In this document: piece after piece, positions 7,280-13,338 of the stretch
Layout: every line of letters begins with the position of its first letter
How positions within the stretch are numbered: the first letter of the stretch is position 1
NCBI RefSeq assembly: GCF_000614185.1
Contig: NZ_BAKM01000002.1
Span: forward strand, 1 to 64,000
Direction: 5' to 3'
Length of the DNA: 64,000 nt
Origin: Phocaeicola sartorii JCM 17136 = DSM 21941
GTDB taxonomy: Bacteria; Bacteroidota; Bacteroidia; Bacteroidales; Bacteroidaceae
Notes under the pieces: generated by a model
Told to the model about the DNA's origin: nothing
The model's input: only the letters and a program-made list of their open reading frames with translations
Databases searched by the model: none
Program-made: the position numbers and the translations under genes

Positions 7280-8119
7280 ATGGGATTTATATCAAATAAG
7301 AAGAGATTATACAGGGTACTTACGGCTGTCTTGGTATTTCTGTCAATCAGTTTTTCCGTCTGTGGACAGGCGTTGAGAGGTACGACCGGACTGCTTCATG
7401 CGCCGACGGCCGATATGCAGCGGGACAAAACGTTTATGCTTGGAGGTAATGTGCTGGACATAACCCCGTTGCATTATTATGATTTTGATGTGAGATACAC
7501 TTTCAATTATTATCTCAACATTACGGTTTTTCCCTGGCTGGAAGTGGGATATACCTGTACGTTGAATTACGCCAATAAGGGTTCTACATATTTCCCGGAG
7601 CAGTCGTGGGGGAAATACACCAATCAGGACAGGTCTTTCAATTTCCGTCTTCGTGTCTGGAAAGAAGGATGGTGGAAAACGTGGACTCCGCAGATCGTGA
7701 TAGGGGTGGACGATCCGGGTACTCATGACAGTTACGGTGGAGGAGGCATATCAAGTCGTGACCAGAATGGTGGTAATTGCTTTTTCACCCGTTACTATAT
7801 TGCCGCAACGAAGCATGTTGGGGTTGATAATCTGGGAATGTTGGGAGTGCATCTTGCCTGGGTGCTGGACCGGCCGGCTACTTGGGAGCATCATAACCGT
7901 CCGGCTATAGGGGTGAATTTCCGGTTGGGATTGCCTGTGCAAGAATCTTGGGCTGTAAAAATGATAAATGGCTTGAACCTGATGGCGGAGTATGATGCAA
8001 GAACTTGCAATGTAGGTTTTGAGTACAGTTTCTGGGAAGACTATGTAAATCTTGTAGCCGAACTGAATAATGGGAAATACTTCTCGGGTGGACTTGTCTT
8101 TAAAATTCACTTGAAATGA
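7280..8119 (+). CDS. YjbH-like exopolysaccharide outer-membrane protein
   Basis: 279-residue protein with an N-terminal Sec signal (LTAVLVFLSISFSVCG, cleaved near the GQA) and beta-strand-rich mature part. The stretch RGTTGLLHAPTADMQRDKTF matches the conserved start of the YjbH domain, in which a new strand of the form GTTGxxxxPTA precedes an outer-membrane barrel. Strand repeats such as NITVFPWLEVGYT follow. A related protein is encoded at 40863-41591 on the other strand. YjbH proteins act in export or surface assembly of exopolysaccharide; the exact role is not settled. It follows the glycosyltransferase by six bases and is closed by a strong hairpin. Confidence 0.78.
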   Translation: MGFISNKKRLYRVLTAVLVFLSISFSVCGQALRGTTGLLHAPTADMQRDKTFMLGGNVLDITPLHYYDFDVRYTFNYYLNITVFPWLEVGYTCTLNYANKGSTYFPEQSWGKYTNQDRSFNFRLRVWKEGWWKTWTPQIVIGVDDPGTHDSYGGGGISSRDQNGGNCFFTRYYIAATKHVGVDNLGMLGVHLAWVLDRPATWEHHNRPAIGVNFRLGLPVQESWAVKMINGLNLMAEYDARTCNVGFEYSFWEDYVNLVAELNNGKYFSGGLVFKIHLK

Positions 8120-8141
8120 ATTTGTTTTCCAACTTTTATTG

Positions 8142-8175
8142 TTAATGCTAAGATAATGACTTATCTTAGCATTAA
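8142..8175 (+). terminator. Perfect 15-bp hairpin after the YjbH-like gene
   Basis: TTAATGCTAAGATAA and TTATCTTAGCATTAA are exact inverted repeats around a four-base TGAC loop, 23 bases after the stop codon. No long T-run follows, so termination is inferred from position and stem strength. Confidence 0.7.
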
Positions 8176-8197
8176 TAATCCATTTAAGAAAAAGAGA

Positions 8198-8340
8198 ATG
8201 ATGAAATATCCCATTGGTATACAGAGTTTTGATCAAATGCTACACCTTATCTGACAGATATGCGCAAAGTCACGAGAATTGGAATCAGTTTCTCATCGGT
8301 AACTATGACCGTGGAGGAATGGGAGGAAAAGATATTGTAA
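8198..8340 (+). pseudogene. Relic of an AAA-ATPase-like/PD-(D/E)XK nuclease gene with its middle deleted
   Basis: The start MMKYPIGIQSFDQ is the conserved N-terminus of the large AAA-ATPase_like plus PD-(D/E)XK family that is very common in Bacteroidales. It runs into a stop after 18 residues. In another frame the next bases encode YLTDMRKVTRIGISFSS followed by a VEEW-type tail and a TAA at 8338-8340, which is the typical C-terminal end of the same family. Head and tail are therefore joined with about 1.4 kb (roughly 480 codons) missing. It is non-functional, and marks this gap as a place of past recombination next to the RT module. Confidence 0.7.
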
Positions 8341-8380
8341 TCAAATCCTGTTTGTTTTTCTTTATTTTCCATCCTTTTGT

Positions 8381-8411
8381 TTTGTAGTATAGTGGAAAAT
8401 ATCTATTTTTG
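8381..8411 (+). promoter_or_regulatory. Bacteroides-type promoter for the RT module
   Basis: TTTG at 8381-8384 and TATTTTTG at 8404-8411 are separated by 19 bases. This matches the Bacteroides -33 (TTTG) and -7 (TAnnTTTG) elements well. Transcription would start near 8418, leaving a leader of about 220 bases before the RT start codon. Confidence 0.6.
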
Positions 8412-8417
8412 TACAAA

Positions 8418-8639
8418 ATAGAAATATCAGCGGTCTTGGTTCGGCAATATGAAATAGAAATTTTGAATTAGTCCGGCGTATTTGTCCGGATGTCCCCACC
8501 TTGGTAGGGAAAACAAGGTTTATTTGTCATTCTCCGCGTGCTCCGTGTACCTTGAACGTTTTGCGTGCTCCGGGGGCGTGGGCATATACAAAGAAAATGA
8601 ATTTTATTATTGCTGGACAAGATCGTTTGCTCTGAATAA
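8418..8639 (+). ncRNA. Candidate structured leader RNA (possible retron-type msr-msd) upstream of the RT
   Basis: The region between the promoter and the RT has no open frame of note, and its part from 8471 to 8582 is clearly richer in G and C than its surroundings. Hairpins visible: 8493-8510 (TCCC..GGGA enclosing AC..GT), an alternative ACCTTG/CAAGGT stem (8498-8503 with 8514-8519), and TGCTC/GGGCA near 8566-8585. TTGTCC at 8483-8488 is complementary to GGACAA at 8615-8620 and could close the whole element. GCGTGCTCCG occurs twice as a direct repeat. Retron RTs normally use an ncRNA just upstream; I cannot show the branching guanosine or a long msd stem, so this stays a candidate. Confidence 0.35.
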
Positions 8640-11012
8640 ATGGACAAAGGAGAAATAGCAAAGAAAGCTCGAATATTGCAAACGAAGACTGATCTTCTTG
8701 CTTTGCTCAATGAGATAAAGGCTGACGATTTGGGGGAGAAAGGGTATCCTTTTGTCCTGCGGCAAATTAATTACTATTGTAATCCGAAAAATACGAAGGG
8801 ACGATTTGTCACTTTTGCTATCCTGAAAAAATCAGGAGGTATTAGAAACATCGCGGCACCAAGTAATGGGCTGAAAATGCTTCAGACTTATCTTAATGTT
8901 ATTCTTGGTTCTTTATATACTCCTTCATCCCATGTTATGGGATTTGTCAAAGGACGTTCCGTTATAACTAATGCTTCGCGACATCTGAATCAGAATTACG
9001 TATTTAATATTGACCTCAAAGATTTTTTTTCCAGTATTCCTCAGGCGCGTGTATGGAAAAGACTGCAACTTCCTCCTTTCTCCTTCCCTCAGGAGATTGC
9101 CAATGTGATAGCAGGATTGTGTTGTATTGAAATGATCGTTCAAGATGAACAAGGACAAGTCCGGACTAAATATGTGCTTCCACAAGGGGCCCCGACATCT
9201 CCTGTCATTACCAATATGATCTGTGATACGCTTGACCGTAGATTATCGGGTTTGGCTGCAAGGTTTGGTTTGAATTTTTCACGCTATGCAGATGATATAA
9301 CTTTTAGTAGCTTGCATTACGTATATAGTGAGAATGGAGCTTTCAGAAAAGAATTAAAGCGCATCGTGGAAGGGCAGAATTTCACTATCAATGAGGCGAA
9401 AACGCGGCTTCAGAAAAAAGGAGATCGTCATGAAGTGACCGGATTAATAGTCAGTGATAGGGTGAATGTATCGAGAACGTATGTGAGAAATCTCCGTTCC
9501 CTTCTTTATATATGGGAGAAATACGGGTATGACGCGGCAAATGAAAAATTTGTTTATTATTATTTGGATGATAAGCCAGCAAGTAGCACTTGTATGCCTA
9601 ATATGGTTAATGTGATTGAAGGTAAGCTACAATATCTGAAAATGGTCAAAGGGGGAGACAATCCTGTATACTTAAATCTATATTCGAAGTTTGAACTGTT
9701 ACAGTATATTTATCATAACAAGGATAACGGAGAGGAGCAATCCATGTCTGATGTCGAATCTATGTTGCATCAATCTTCCATGTCTGTGGAGGGAGTTGTG
9801 GCTCAGTGGAAAAACAGGGATATTTTTTCGATAACAGGAACGCTGCTTAATGAGTGTAAACGTTCTGTATCTCCTCTTATTGTGAAGAAAGTAGCTGCAT
9901 CCCTTATGGCTTATTTATCTGCGTCTCTTGTCAACAATATCAAGAAAAGGGCTGAACTGCAATGGTATATGTTGAGGGATATCAATGATGCGATGAATGG
10001 ACAGCCTCGAACAAGAAAGATAGATGGAGAGGAGGAAAAAATTCATCGTCCTAAATTGGTAGTTGCTTTTTTAAAGCAGTTCACTTCCACAGAGAATCTG
10101 AAATATACCACCCATACTTGGGAACGAATGATAGACGGAAAGTATAAATGGACTGATTTTGATCAATTTTTTCATTCGTATGAATCTGAACTGAAAGATA
10201 AAACAGGGTCCGGTATACCAATCTTCGATATTTATAATTGCAATATACATCTCTATAATCTGGTCAGGAATTTCCTGCTTCCACCATCCAAAGAAGAGTA
10301 TCCCTGGCAAACAGACTATGGACTTAAGTTGTCATATTGCACTCCGGAAGGAGTTATTCAAAATTGGATGAAAGAAAATCCGGACAAACAGCCTATGGAG
10401 ATACCTCTTTCTGTCTTTCCGGAAAGTTATAGACCTAAGCAACGTGTGCAGGGACAGACACTGGTGGATTTTCGGGATGTGATTGATATATTTAAGAACG
10501 CCATCGAGTATCGGGATGATAATCTCTATTGGGATGTATCGGATATCTTTAAATTGACGGATTTTTCTTTGGATGACAGCGTATTAGATACATTGTCGGG
10601 AATAACGTTTTATACCGATACGATACTCGTAAGGGAGGCTTTGAAAATAATTGCAGACAATATTATTGTCCGTCCTCAACATCGGCATTTAAAGGTACAG
10701 GCTATAAGAGGCAAGGATGGAGATCAAAAATATGTATCATTGGAAATTCTGCATGTAGAGTCCTTTTCCAATAAATCTTTGGATGACGACAAATTGCAAT
10801 TGAAGGGAAATAAAGGGCAACTGAGTGCTGTCAAGCAGAAGTTGGTCAGCCTTTGCGATTTTTCTGTTGAAAGTAGATTCAGAAAAGGTGATGAAATGGG
10901 TGACTATAGAATAGATTATCTGTATAGCGAAGAAGTAAATGCAGAACCTCGTGTAACTAAGCTTGACGCACCTGCAGAGGGCTTTAAATATATATTAAAA
11001 TTTTACTTATAA
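8640..11012 (+). CDS. Retron-type reverse transcriptase with long C-terminal extension
   Basis: 790-residue protein. The RT domain spans about residues 30-320: IDLKDFF (first catalytic Asp, D125), PQGAPTSP (181-188) and YADD (216-219). Two features specific to retron RTs are present: NASRH at 111-115 (the NAxxH region X motif) and VTG at 266-268 (region Y). Ordinary retron RTs are about 300-400 residues, so some 450 residues are extra. The last 150 (N-box-like VREALKIIADNI, then GNKGQLSAVKQKL, ending in FKYILKFYL) resemble a degenerate GHKL/histidine-kinase ATPase fold, which is my inference. The gene has its own promoter and a structured leader, and is followed after nine bases by two receiver-like genes. 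I know of no described retron type with this make-up. Confidence 0.85.
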   Translation: MDKGEIAKKARILQTKTDLLALLNEIKADDLGEKGYPFVLRQINYYCNPKNTKGRFVTFAILKKSGGIRNIAAPSNGLKMLQTYLNVILGSLYTPSSHVMGFVKGRSVITNASRHLNQNYVFNIDLKDFFSSIPQARVWKRLQLPPFSFPQEIANVIAGLCCIEMIVQDEQGQVRTKYVLPQGAPTSPVITNMICDTLDRRLSGLAARFGLNFSRYADDITFSSLHYVYSENGAFRKELKRIVEGQNFTINEAKTRLQKKGDRHEVTGLIVSDRVNVSRTYVRNLRSLLYIWEKYGYDAANEKFVYYYLDDKPASSTCMPNMVNVIEGKLQYLKMVKGGDNPVYLNLYSKFELLQYIYHNKDNGEEQSMSDVESMLHQSSMSVEGVVAQWKNRDIFSITGTLLNECKRSVSPLIVKKVAASLMAYLSASLVNNIKKRAELQWYMLRDINDAMNGQPRTRKIDGEEEKIHRPKLVVAFLKQFTSTENLKYTTHTWERMIDGKYKWTDFDQFFHSYESELKDKTGSGIPIFDIYNCNIHLYNLVRNFLLPPSKEEYPWQTDYGLKLSYCTPEGVIQNWMKENPDKQPMEIPLSVFPESYRPKQRVQGQTLVDFRDVIDIFKNAIEYRDDNLYWDVSDIFKLTDFSLDDSVLDTLSGITFYTDTILVREALKIIADNIIVRPQHRHLKVQAIRGKDGDQKYVSLEILHVESFSNKSLDDDKLQLKGNKGQLSAVKQKLVSLCDFSVESRFRKGDEMGDYRIDYLYSEEVNAEPRVTKLDAPAEGFKYILKFYL

Positions 11013-11021
11013 CAGTACATT

Positions 11022-11585
11022 ATGAAACATTGTATCATTATAGAAGACAGGGTAGAACGCCAGCAGAAACAGCTGACGGAGGAGCAATGGGAGAGGTTGT
11101 GTCAATTGGCCGCTGTCGATTCTGAACTCCCCGGCTATGAAGAGGGAAAAGAATATGATTTTTCTGCATTTGATGATTATGATATAGTTGCTGTTCATCG
11201 TACCTTATTGGCAAAGACCAATTTAATCAATGAGTTTATGGATTATGCAAAGAATAAAAAGAAAAATTCTATCATATTCAGTGGAAGTATTACGCAGCAG
11301 TTAGTCACAAATGGGGGTAATACTTTAGCTGTTGAAGCAACGGTCTTTTACCAATCCATTGTTACTTTTCTGGAGACTTATGATGACAGTCAGGATTTTC
11401 CTTTATACCGATTCTTATATGGCAATGAATGGGAACTTCCATTGCTGCTTCGATTCCGATTCTTGAAATGGAAAGAGAAAGACGGTACGCTTCAACGGCA
11501 GGAAAAAGCAGAACTTCAGAGTTTGCAAAAAGCGTACGAGGGAGATTTTGAAAAGCGAATAACGGAACTAATTCAAAATATCTGA
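11022..11585 (+). CDS. Small pseudo-receiver-like protein of the RT module
   Basis: 187 residues, not a family I can name. The layout fits an inactive response-regulator receiver fold: first strand HCIIIEDR (acidic pair E8-D9), third strand YDIVAVHRTLL where the phospho-acceptor Asp is replaced, and fourth strand NSIIFSGS in the position of the conserved Ser/Thr. The rest is helical (a tail rich in Glu, Lys and Gln). It lies nine bases after the RT stop and two bases before the receiver-HEPN gene, so the three are certainly co-transcribed. A role as adaptor or sensor between RT and effector is inference. Confidence 0.6.
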   Translation: MKHCIIIEDRVERQQKQLTEEQWERLCQLAAVDSELPGYEEGKEYDFSAFDDYDIVAVHRTLLAKTNLINEFMDYAKNKKKNSIIFSGSITQQLVTNGGNTLAVEATVFYQSIVTFLETYDDSQDFPLYRFLYGNEWELPLLLRFRFLKWKEKDGTLQRQEKAELQSLQKAYEGDFEKRITELIQNI

Positions 11586-11586
11586 T

Positions 11587-13338
11587 ATGGCTAGAATACT
11601 GATGTTGCATAACGATAATCTGCCGGGTGTTTTCTATGAACAGGAATTGGCGGGAAAATTTGATATTGAGAATGTTACAATCCGGATATCGGAAGATGTC
11701 ATGGATTTTGATGCTGAAATATGCGCTTTGTTGAATCCGATATTTCAGAGAAAGCCGTATGATTTGATTGTTTTGCCATATACTTTTGATGCGCAGAATT
11801 ATATGTCATTTACAGGTATCAGGACGGCTGTGCATATTCGGCTGACTCAGTTATGGGGACATACACGTAAGCCCATATTATTTGTCGGTCCGGATGCAAT
11901 AGAACAGGTGGAAAAACTTTCTTCGATGGGAAGTTTGTTTCTTACTTCTCTAGTCTATCATACAAATTCACTGTCAAAAGATTCATTGATATCGCTCATG
12001 GATGATTGTATGAAGAAGGTGGAAATGACAGATATGCAATACAGGAATTTTTTGGAGAAAGTGCAAGTGTCTCGTCCTTCTAATTATCAAACGCACCATT
12101 CATTGGCTAATGAATGGGCTGTTCGCAGATGGGCGGAGATGCTTTCTTGGGATAATAATCCTCCCGCCTTGCCTGGTGAAGATGTTTTTAATATGCTATT
12201 TTACAAATATTTATATGCGAACCTGGCTACAAAGCATGAGGTGTTTTCTAATAGATTCAAGAAGAAGAATCCGGTGAAGCCTTTGGTTAACGGCATAGAA
12301 AATAAAACGATAGTATATGTAGATGACGAATATAACAAGGGCTGGGAAAACTTATTGAAGATAATAGTTGAAAATTCCAGGGCGAAGTTGGTTTGTTATA
12401 AAGATTTCAATGAAGCTTGGAAAAGAGATGAATTGGTGAAGCATATCAATGACTTTTTGGATGCTCAAGCTGACGCACATTGCTTTTTGATTGATTTACG
12501 TTTGCATGAGGAGGATTTTGAGGGAGATCCGGCTCTGATGACGGGACATCAGGTGGTGAAGCATCTGTTTGGGAAACGCCAGAATACACAGGTCGTTGTG
12601 TTTACGGCTTCTAATAAAGTCTGGAATATGAAACAGGTAATGTCCGATTATCATGTATCAGATTACATAATTAAAGAGTCTCCGGAGTTTAATTTCGCTC
12701 GTGCTGAAACAATACAAAATTTCAAGAAATTTCTCAGTGCCATAAGGAAGGCGGCTTGTCAGCATTATATCAGAGACTATCAAAAAGAACTAGAAAAGCT
12801 TTCTACGCAATGTCCCAAAGGGGATTTGATGGAGTTTGTGTCTCTTCTTTCCTTCGATTCGGATGAGGGAAAGAATAAGGTGCTAAAGGCATTGTTATTG
12901 TCTCTGCATGTCTTTATAGAGAATTATATTTCAAATGTTCAGAAATTTGCGATTGATAGTGCTGGGAACCTTTTGGAACCGAACGGTGGTATTTGCAATT
13001 TCAATAAGAAAATGTTCTTTAAATTTGACAACAGTGGGGCTAAAAGTAATAAAATAGATGTCAAGTTTGAAGATAAATTGACTTTAGAATCAGCTGGATG
13101 GAAGTTCGCTCCAACTGATAATGAGAAGTCTAAAGATACTATCCAAGTGGCTGCACTACACTATTATTATGGTTTTGATGCTTCTCTTTGTAAATTGTTT
13201 CTGAATATAAAAAAGGATAGGAATACTGTTATCTCTCATTGTGGCGGAACGGTGACCAGTAACATCGAGGATGTCAAGAAGCTTTTCCAAGATGTGATAA
13301 TGGTCATGTTGCATAGGGATTATCCTCCTGTCCCATAA
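11587..13338 (+). CDS. Pseudo-receiver/receiver/HEPN-like effector of the RT module
   Basis: 583 residues in three parts. Residues 1-125 look like a receiver fold without the catalytic Asp (RILMLHND, YDLIVLP, KPILFVGP). Residues about 238-370 form a receiver with all key residues: DDE at 246-248, acceptor D303 in LIDLRL, T340 in VVVFTAS, and K363 in DYIIKES. The C-terminal part (about 390-583) is helical and ends with RNTVISH at 545-551, an R-x5-H arrangement as in HEPN ribonucleases, after a helix LLLSLHVFIENYI. HEPN domains are common RNA-cleaving toxins in anti-phage systems. I infer a signal-controlled effector, with the RT module as trigger. Convergent with enolase, and closed by a shared hairpin. 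Confidence 0.68.
   Translation: MARILMLHNDNLPGVFYEQELAGKFDIENVTIRISEDVMDFDAEICALLNPIFQRKPYDLIVLPYTFDAQNYMSFTGIRTAVHIRLTQLWGHTRKPILFVGPDAIEQVEKLSSMGSLFLTSLVYHTNSLSKDSLISLMDDCMKKVEMTDMQYRNFLEKVQVSRPSNYQTHHSLANEWAVRRWAEMLSWDNNPPALPGEDVFNMLFYKYLYANLATKHEVFSNRFKKKNPVKPLVNGIENKTIVYVDDEYNKGWENLLKIIVENSRAKLVCYKDFNEAWKRDELVKHINDFLDAQADAHCFLIDLRLHEEDFEGDPALMTGHQVVKHLFGKRQNTQVVVFTASNKVWNMKQVMSDYHVSDYIIKESPEFNFARAETIQNFKKFLSAIRKAACQHYIRDYQKELEKLSTQCPKGDLMEFVSLLSFDSDEGKNKVLKALLLSLHVFIENYISNVQKFAIDSAGNLLEPNGGICNFNKKMFFKFDNSGAKSNKIDVKFEDKLTLESAGWKFAPTDNEKSKDTIQVAALHYYYGFDASLCKLFLNIKKDRNTVISHCGGTVTSNIEDVKKLFQDVIMVMLHRDYPPVP

Follow-up and report, generated by a model that had tools for sequence, protein, structure and literature searches.

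The leader in front of a reverse transcriptase (RT) gene of Phocaeicola sartorii JCM 17136 = DSM 21941 is, with a probability that we put at roughly 0.9, a retron non-coding RNA (ncRNA; msr-msd) at positions 8427 to 8629; this figure covers the ncRNA and not the signalling relay that is proposed for the genes behind it. The stretch of DNA analyzed, referred to here as the window, comprises 64,000 nt (contig NZ_BAKM01000002.1, positions 1-64,000, forward strand) and, unless stated otherwise, all its features lie on the + strand. The first-pass annotation had suggested a retron ncRNA at this site, a suggestion that is supported by detection with a covariance model and by two-sided base changes in 26 of the 52 modelled pairs over 14 leaders.

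Structure and conservation of the leader

A leader of about 220 bases had been described between a promoter and the RT start at 8640, and our analysis confirmed both this leader and its lack of coding signs, the sole open reading frame of at least 60 aa that crosses it being an 80-aa frame on the minus strand. The claim of a good promoter held in part. A match to TTTG-N19-TAnnTTTG, which we take to be the promoter consensus of the Bacteroidota type, does lie 5' of the leader at 8381-8411 (TTTG at 8381-8384, 19 bases, TATTTTTG at 8404-8411), but the pattern alone does no better than chance, with one match in 64 kb against 1.97 expected. TAnnTTTG is located 20-26 bases 5' of the a1 arm described below in the nine leaders used for training and 25 bases in the window, and the match therefore carries weight because of its place relative to a1, not because of pattern statistics. 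Likewise, GC content is higher in the leader, as had been claimed, but the contrast with the flanks is modest, since flanking segments reach 0.41 against 0.42 (0.42 in 8450-8669, 0.31-0.41 in four segments of 7900-8449 and 0.38-0.41 in the segments after it). Farther upstream, 8198-8340 holds the remnant of a multi-copy gene with the start MMKYPIGIQSFDQ; its part 8201-8238 has matches at many sites in further genomes of this genus.

The leader is structured, as proposed earlier: its predicted fold has a free energy of -65.6 kcal/mol (z -2.46), equalled by 2 of 200 shuffled sequences. The minimum free energy (MFE) fold contains a long-range stem of 26 pairs, in which 8429-8438 and 8440-8455 pair with 8601-8606 and 8608-8627. 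These are the a1 arm (8429-8455) and the a2 arm (8601-8627) of an inverted repeat, corresponding to consensus helices 1-3, in which covariation is seen. When single leaders were scanned, the best a1/a2 helix of the window did not reach significance, 7 of 100 shuffles being as good, and neither did those of three of the nine training leaders (L033, L034 and L035); the case for the ncRNA thus rests on comparison.

For this comparison, RT relatives were taken from whole genomes (19 of 100, 28 of 393 and 7 of 395, in overlapping samples with different E limits and with the window's genome included) and from named records (four loci). Model R1, a covariance model of 238 positions and 52 pairs, was built from the leaders of nine loci whose RT is 53-59% identical to that of the window, the window itself being excluded. 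Similarity between these nine leaders and the window is clearest at TTTTGAA..GTCCGGCGTATTTGTCCGGATGTC and around the a2 arm. A covariance comparison of homologues had been put forward as the check on the leader, and conserved pairing was indeed found at 8427-8629 by this independently trained model (49.1 bits, E 1.3e-8 in 64 kb). Within the window's own genome the same interval was reported with an E-value of 1.2e-6, among the 10 of 1118 first-look candidates that were scored. The R1 E-values are rough, because a second match in the window (13105-13248, 21.3 bits) falls inside gene 3 at E 0.0066. In a set of 199 genomes, R1 matched eight, namely three training genomes, that of the window and four new ones, and in each of the new genomes a related RT begins 18-25 bases 3' of the match. 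Rfam gave no match over the window at curated thresholds, nor over 8380-8680 at E-values up to 5.

Fitted to R1, the 14 leaders pair in 93.5% of 692 cells, against 39-55% for slid structures, and none of 500 shuffles reached any of the five measures used; being fitted, this alignment leans towards the model. An unfitted MAFFT alignment including the window (10 rows) gave 43 predicted pairs, 16 of which show two-sided changes. Common to the 14 leaders are the a1/a2 inverted-repeat stem, two msr hairpins and TTTGA before hairpin 1. A second set of leaders, from eight more distant loci, folds with a1/a2 and two hairpins as well; as these leaders were cut at their own a1/a2 arms, the arms in their folds are no independent test. 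Among 18 more distant loci R1 found nothing under E 0.2, and these loci include the three other RT-HisKin fusions, L059, L060 and L061. Its three best weak matches (L040, L005 and L038; E 0.21, 0.27 and 0.45) are situated directly upstream of more distant RTs, and the two leader sets may therefore represent one old RNA family.

Both msr hairpins are part of the MFE fold and covary: hairpin 1 (8471-8491; GTCCGGCG ... CCGGAT; helix 6) has two-sided changes in 4 of 9 pairs and hairpin 2 (8493-8510; helix 7) in 6 of 9. All 14 leaders have TTTGA between a1 and hairpin 1, and all eight of the second set have TTGA near a1. In the window, the conserved motif TTTTG (8461-8465) ends in G8465, which we predict to be the branching base because retrons prime on a conserved G adjacent to their inverted repeat, according to the available portion of PMC8989520. 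Against this predicted role, G8465 is paired with position 8514 in the MFE fold of the window.

Because it lies between hairpin 2 and a2, 8511-8593 is predicted to be the template segment (msd), with approximate limits. This segment varies strongly among relatives; that of the window has a GC content above that of most of them and contains a ten-base direct repeat, GCGTGCTCCG, at 8536-8545 and 8563-8572. A stable hairpin was not found in the predicted msDNA: the antisense of 8515-8593 folds worse than shuffled sequences (z +2.2), as does the model-based msd of the window (z +2.05, with guessed msd limits), and across the 14 leaders only two predicted msd hairpins had at most 5 of 100 shuffles as good. 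The weak DNA hairpin is at odds with a textbook retron, and most of the ncRNA family behaves alike. A DNA stem-loop in the msd is common in retrons but not obligatory.

The reverse transcriptase and other readings of its leader

The gene that starts at 8640 (8640-11012) encodes a retron-type RT (aa ~15-356) fused to a HisKin-conflict domain (aa 467-789; 10038-11006), both recognized by profile matches. Its best PADLOC models are RT-Protease_XI (E 4.7e-104), RT-TIR_XII and RT-Toprim_I-C, each matching the RT part only, and in Pfam it matches HisKin-conflict (PF22561, E 5.6e-45) and RVT_1 (E 1.3e-23). The best NCBIfam matches are retron RTs, yet none reaches an NCBIfam retron cut-off. The 12 best PDB sequences for the RT are likewise retron RTs. 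Among 30 aligned RTs, YADD is invariant and NAxxH and VTG are invariant or nearly so, three motifs that mark retron RTs.

The type of the RT bears on a reading in which the leader is its structured RNA partner in the manner of DRT systems, serving as scaffold or as another kind of template, without branched msDNA. That the predicted DNA is not hairpin-forming and that the segment taken as msd varies so strongly among relatives would both suit such a partner RNA. The RT, however, scores far higher with retron models (to E 1e-104) than with Drt3a (E 5e-7) or Drt2 (E 2e-6), and an a1/a2 stem with an adjoining conserved G is a retron layout; we consider a DRT-like RNA improbable. Lower still do we rate a leader that acts solely in cis on the RT operon, by translation control or RT autoregulation. 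It would have in its favor that the R1 match stops 11 bases before the RT start, which brings a2 close to the ribosome-binding region, but internal hairpins, motif and long closing stem are kept in 14 loci, each of them before this RT family, and 8100-8700 holds no terminator-like hairpin with a T run.

The long-range stem had itself been read differently, as a pairing of TTGTCC, at 8482-8487 and hence one base off the 8483-8488 given by the first-pass annotation, with GGACAA at 8615-8620. These six bases are complementary, but over the 14 homologous leaders 59.5% of cells pair, against 54.4% in shuffles, of which 26 of 500 were as high. The pairing, which is not conserved, overlaps hairpin 1 and the a2 arm and competes with the a1/a2 stem, so that it would exclude hairpin 1 and part of that stem; we rejected it, and as an account of the long-range stem its probability is the lowest of all, close to nil. 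The retron ncRNA closed by a1/a2 is the reading on which the following sections build.

The HisKin module, its partner genes and related loci

The RT-HisKin gene forms an operon with two further genes. For the HisKin part (aa 441-790), the predicted structure (pLDDT 84.7) matches histidine-kinase catalytic domains with a best Z of 11.6, and the kinase His492 is invariant in an alignment of 10 proteins. In the same alignment, among the columns that we presume to represent the N and G boxes for ATP binding, DxGxG is absent and the Asn of the N box varies, and the G-boxes look degenerate. Gene 2 (11022-11585, 187 aa) has a start (IIIEDR) that is receiver-like at the level of motifs, and an invariant His59 in an alignment of 10. 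Its best PDB match is a response regulator (E 0.029), and comparison with gene 3 by hhalign gave a probability of 2.6%. Only in L059, L060, L061 and L079 did phmmer recognize gene 2; in L087-L091 its assignment relied on position and on the motif at the N-terminus.

Gene 3 (11587-13338, 583 aa) consists of an inactive receiver (PF22563, E 3.8e-15), a second receiver and a C-terminal part with R545NTVISH551. Its predicted structure (pLDDT 73.7) shows receiver folds with a best Z of 12.2. The phospho-acceptor site of the second receiver is intact, D246, D247, D303, S342 and K363 being invariant in nine aligned proteins; L090, whose 681-aa gene at this place showed no similarity, was left out. 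With a predicted histidine kinase catalytic fold carrying His492 on one side and conserved receiver Asp, Ser and Lys residues on the other, the operon has a two-component layout in which these residues would act. At the gene 3 C-terminus, where Pfam gave no match, Rx4-5H is present in 9 of 9 rows and RN in 7 of 9, and this part is possibly an effector of the HEPN-type RNase kind, to judge from these motifs, HEPN RNases being marked by Rx4-6H within a helical domain. PADLOC models had no match on genes 2 and 3.

The order RT-HisKin-gene 2-gene 3 was found in ten loci, with gene 3 recognized in all except L090. At order level 7 of 295 genomes, and at phylum level 2 of 395, hold HisKin-conflict above cut-off; both counts include the genome of the window, and one more match (G342) was below cut-off. 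Each of the eight distinct HisKin genomes has a related RT, either fused or immediately upstream, and two further HisKin loci (L061 and L079) came from the RT and RNA searches. The RT tree places L079 nearest to the window (support 96/96); there, RT and HisKin are encoded by two separate genes, but an ncRNA is still detected by R1. A gene directly 3' of this split RT/HisKin/gene 2/gene 3 operon (L079:8438-10885) in our view resembles Hsp70. As HisKin loci occur in scattered parts of the RT tree, the module is either of old origin or has undergone repeated gain, loss or exchange. The RT alignment was made without L066, which ends at a contig edge, and with the wider L059, L061 and L060 in place of L006, L039 and L043; L007-L030 and L046-L058 are outside the alignments, most of them being weaker or incomplete matches or additional parts of loci that were already included.

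Helicase and TPR-CSD genes accompany the HisKin loci L059, L060, L061 and L088, and a helicase gene L090. In L060, the one locus whose domains were tested, these include matches to TBP-TOTE and S1CSD-TOTE. The sister locus L076 has the same helicase/TPR-CSD pair beside another effector, and in the window TPR-OB and TBP-helicase genes are absent between gene 3 and the enolase gene. Two other gene families recur near these RTs. One, starting with approximately (N/T)KxAxxRxxxLD, is found in L060, L076, L077, L078, L088, L089 and L090 and is presumably regulator-like, resembling WYL regulators; the other, short repeat proteins with approximately VPFGKYxWIxxFxxGLAR upstream of the RT in L031, L034, L077, L078 and L079, resembles what we take to be WG/KWG repeats.

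Sister loci with the same ncRNA family and an RT 53-59% identical to that of the window (L002-L004, L031-L035 and L076-L078) come, in the named records, from Bacteroidaceae, Prevotellaceae, Prevotella and Bacteroidales genomes. Where the window has its HisKin module, the seven that were read downstream (L031-L034 and L076-L078) have a separate RNxxxH protein of 275-307 aa (L031:7556-8383, L032:7463-8290, L033:7463-8365, L034:7448-8281, L076:3076-3915, L077:4457-5362 and L078:6002-6925). These proteins occur in two variants that share their N-terminal part and the RNxxxH motif, and are a candidate new retron effector; the two tested (L032 and L033) had no PADLOC match and no Pfam match over cut-off. 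Kinship of the gene 3 C-terminus with them was considered and rejected, as no profile similarity was detected (hhalign probability 0.3-1.6%).

Searches of plasmids returned the RT part only, the best two at 48.5% and 49.4% identity (Chryseobacterium), with none of 14 records covering 80% of the query in one place. Viral contigs held no relative. The single phage match is a weak one to gene 3 (MT837349.1:4550-5416, 25.8% identity), in a 7-kb record from human feces labelled 'Bacteriophage sp.'. As to an empty site, the left flank is present at 94% in one genome, whose contig stops about 200 bases later.

Known systems and a possible msDNA-gated phosphorelay

Retrons of types XI (RT-protease), XII (RT-TIR) and I-C (RT-Toprim; Ec67/Eco2) likewise have a C-terminal fusion to a retron-type RT. 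In the window, however, the C-terminal part is HisKin-conflict instead of protease, TIR or Toprim, and two further signalling genes follow. The match to RT-Protease_XI stops at position 344 of the 510 of the profile, leaving the protease part without a match. Judged by these profiles, the RT-HisKin fusion fits no retron type in the libraries used. Detocs, a two-component-like phage defense with a kinase and a receiver-effector, resembles the operon in layout; we know of no RT or ncRNA in Detocs. The relay proposed below would, to our knowledge, make this the first retron whose signal is a phosphorylation and not the freeing of a bound toxin.

Fused retron domains named in the available part of PMC12405507 are Toprim, protease and TIR, and Eco2 is described there as an ncRNA with an RT-Toprim fusion, whose msDNA and protein form a self-inhibitory assembly. 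TOTE conflict systems, the subject of a 2022 work cited in the available text of PMC12458937, resemble the HisKin loci L059, L060, L061, L088 and L090 through the TOTE-like genes that we found there; the window has enolase after gene 3. Retron-Sda1, too, is from the Bacteroidota and combines a retron RT with unusual partners; the accessible sections of PMC12548924 interpret it as possibly a new type of retron. Its partners, a HipA-like kinase and DUF3037, are unlike those of the window, and the same sections report its defense against the tested phage as independent of RT and ncRNA. A histidine kinase fused to a retron or other RT was not found in the literature searched; the 2020 retron classification and the 2022 TOTE paper were outside its scope, so that the novelty of the RT-HisKin fusion is not proven.

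A working model can be outlined for the window. The ncRNA would be transcribed from the promoter at 8381-8411 and closed by the long a1/a2 stem, and the downstream RT would bind it through the two short msr hairpins. Most likely, the RT would prime on G8465 and make single-stranded DNA from the template that lies between hairpin 2 and a2. By analogy with the self-inhibitory assembly of Eco2, we propose that the resulting RT-msDNA particle keeps the HisKin domain silent until a phage protein that attacks or binds the msDNA starts a phosphorelay, which would give the operon a role in defense. Phosphate would then pass from His492 of HisKin to Asp303 of the gene 3 receiver and so set free the C-terminal effector of gene 3, which may be an RNase of the HEPN type; gene 2 would act as a modulator. 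The central idea, that the RT-msDNA particle itself is the sensor of the phosphorelay and that msDNA-gated phosphate transfer via the receiver activates the effector, is tentative, and we hold it at somewhat short of even odds.

The analysis defines the ncRNA of a probable retron with a two-component-like effector arm and predicts where it is primed and which DNA it yields, and R1 also finds four further members of this ncRNA in the window's own family of genomes. If the proposed relay is true, its trigger and output would be testable gene by gene, and retron sensing could feed a phosphorelay, joining two kinds of bacterial immune signalling.
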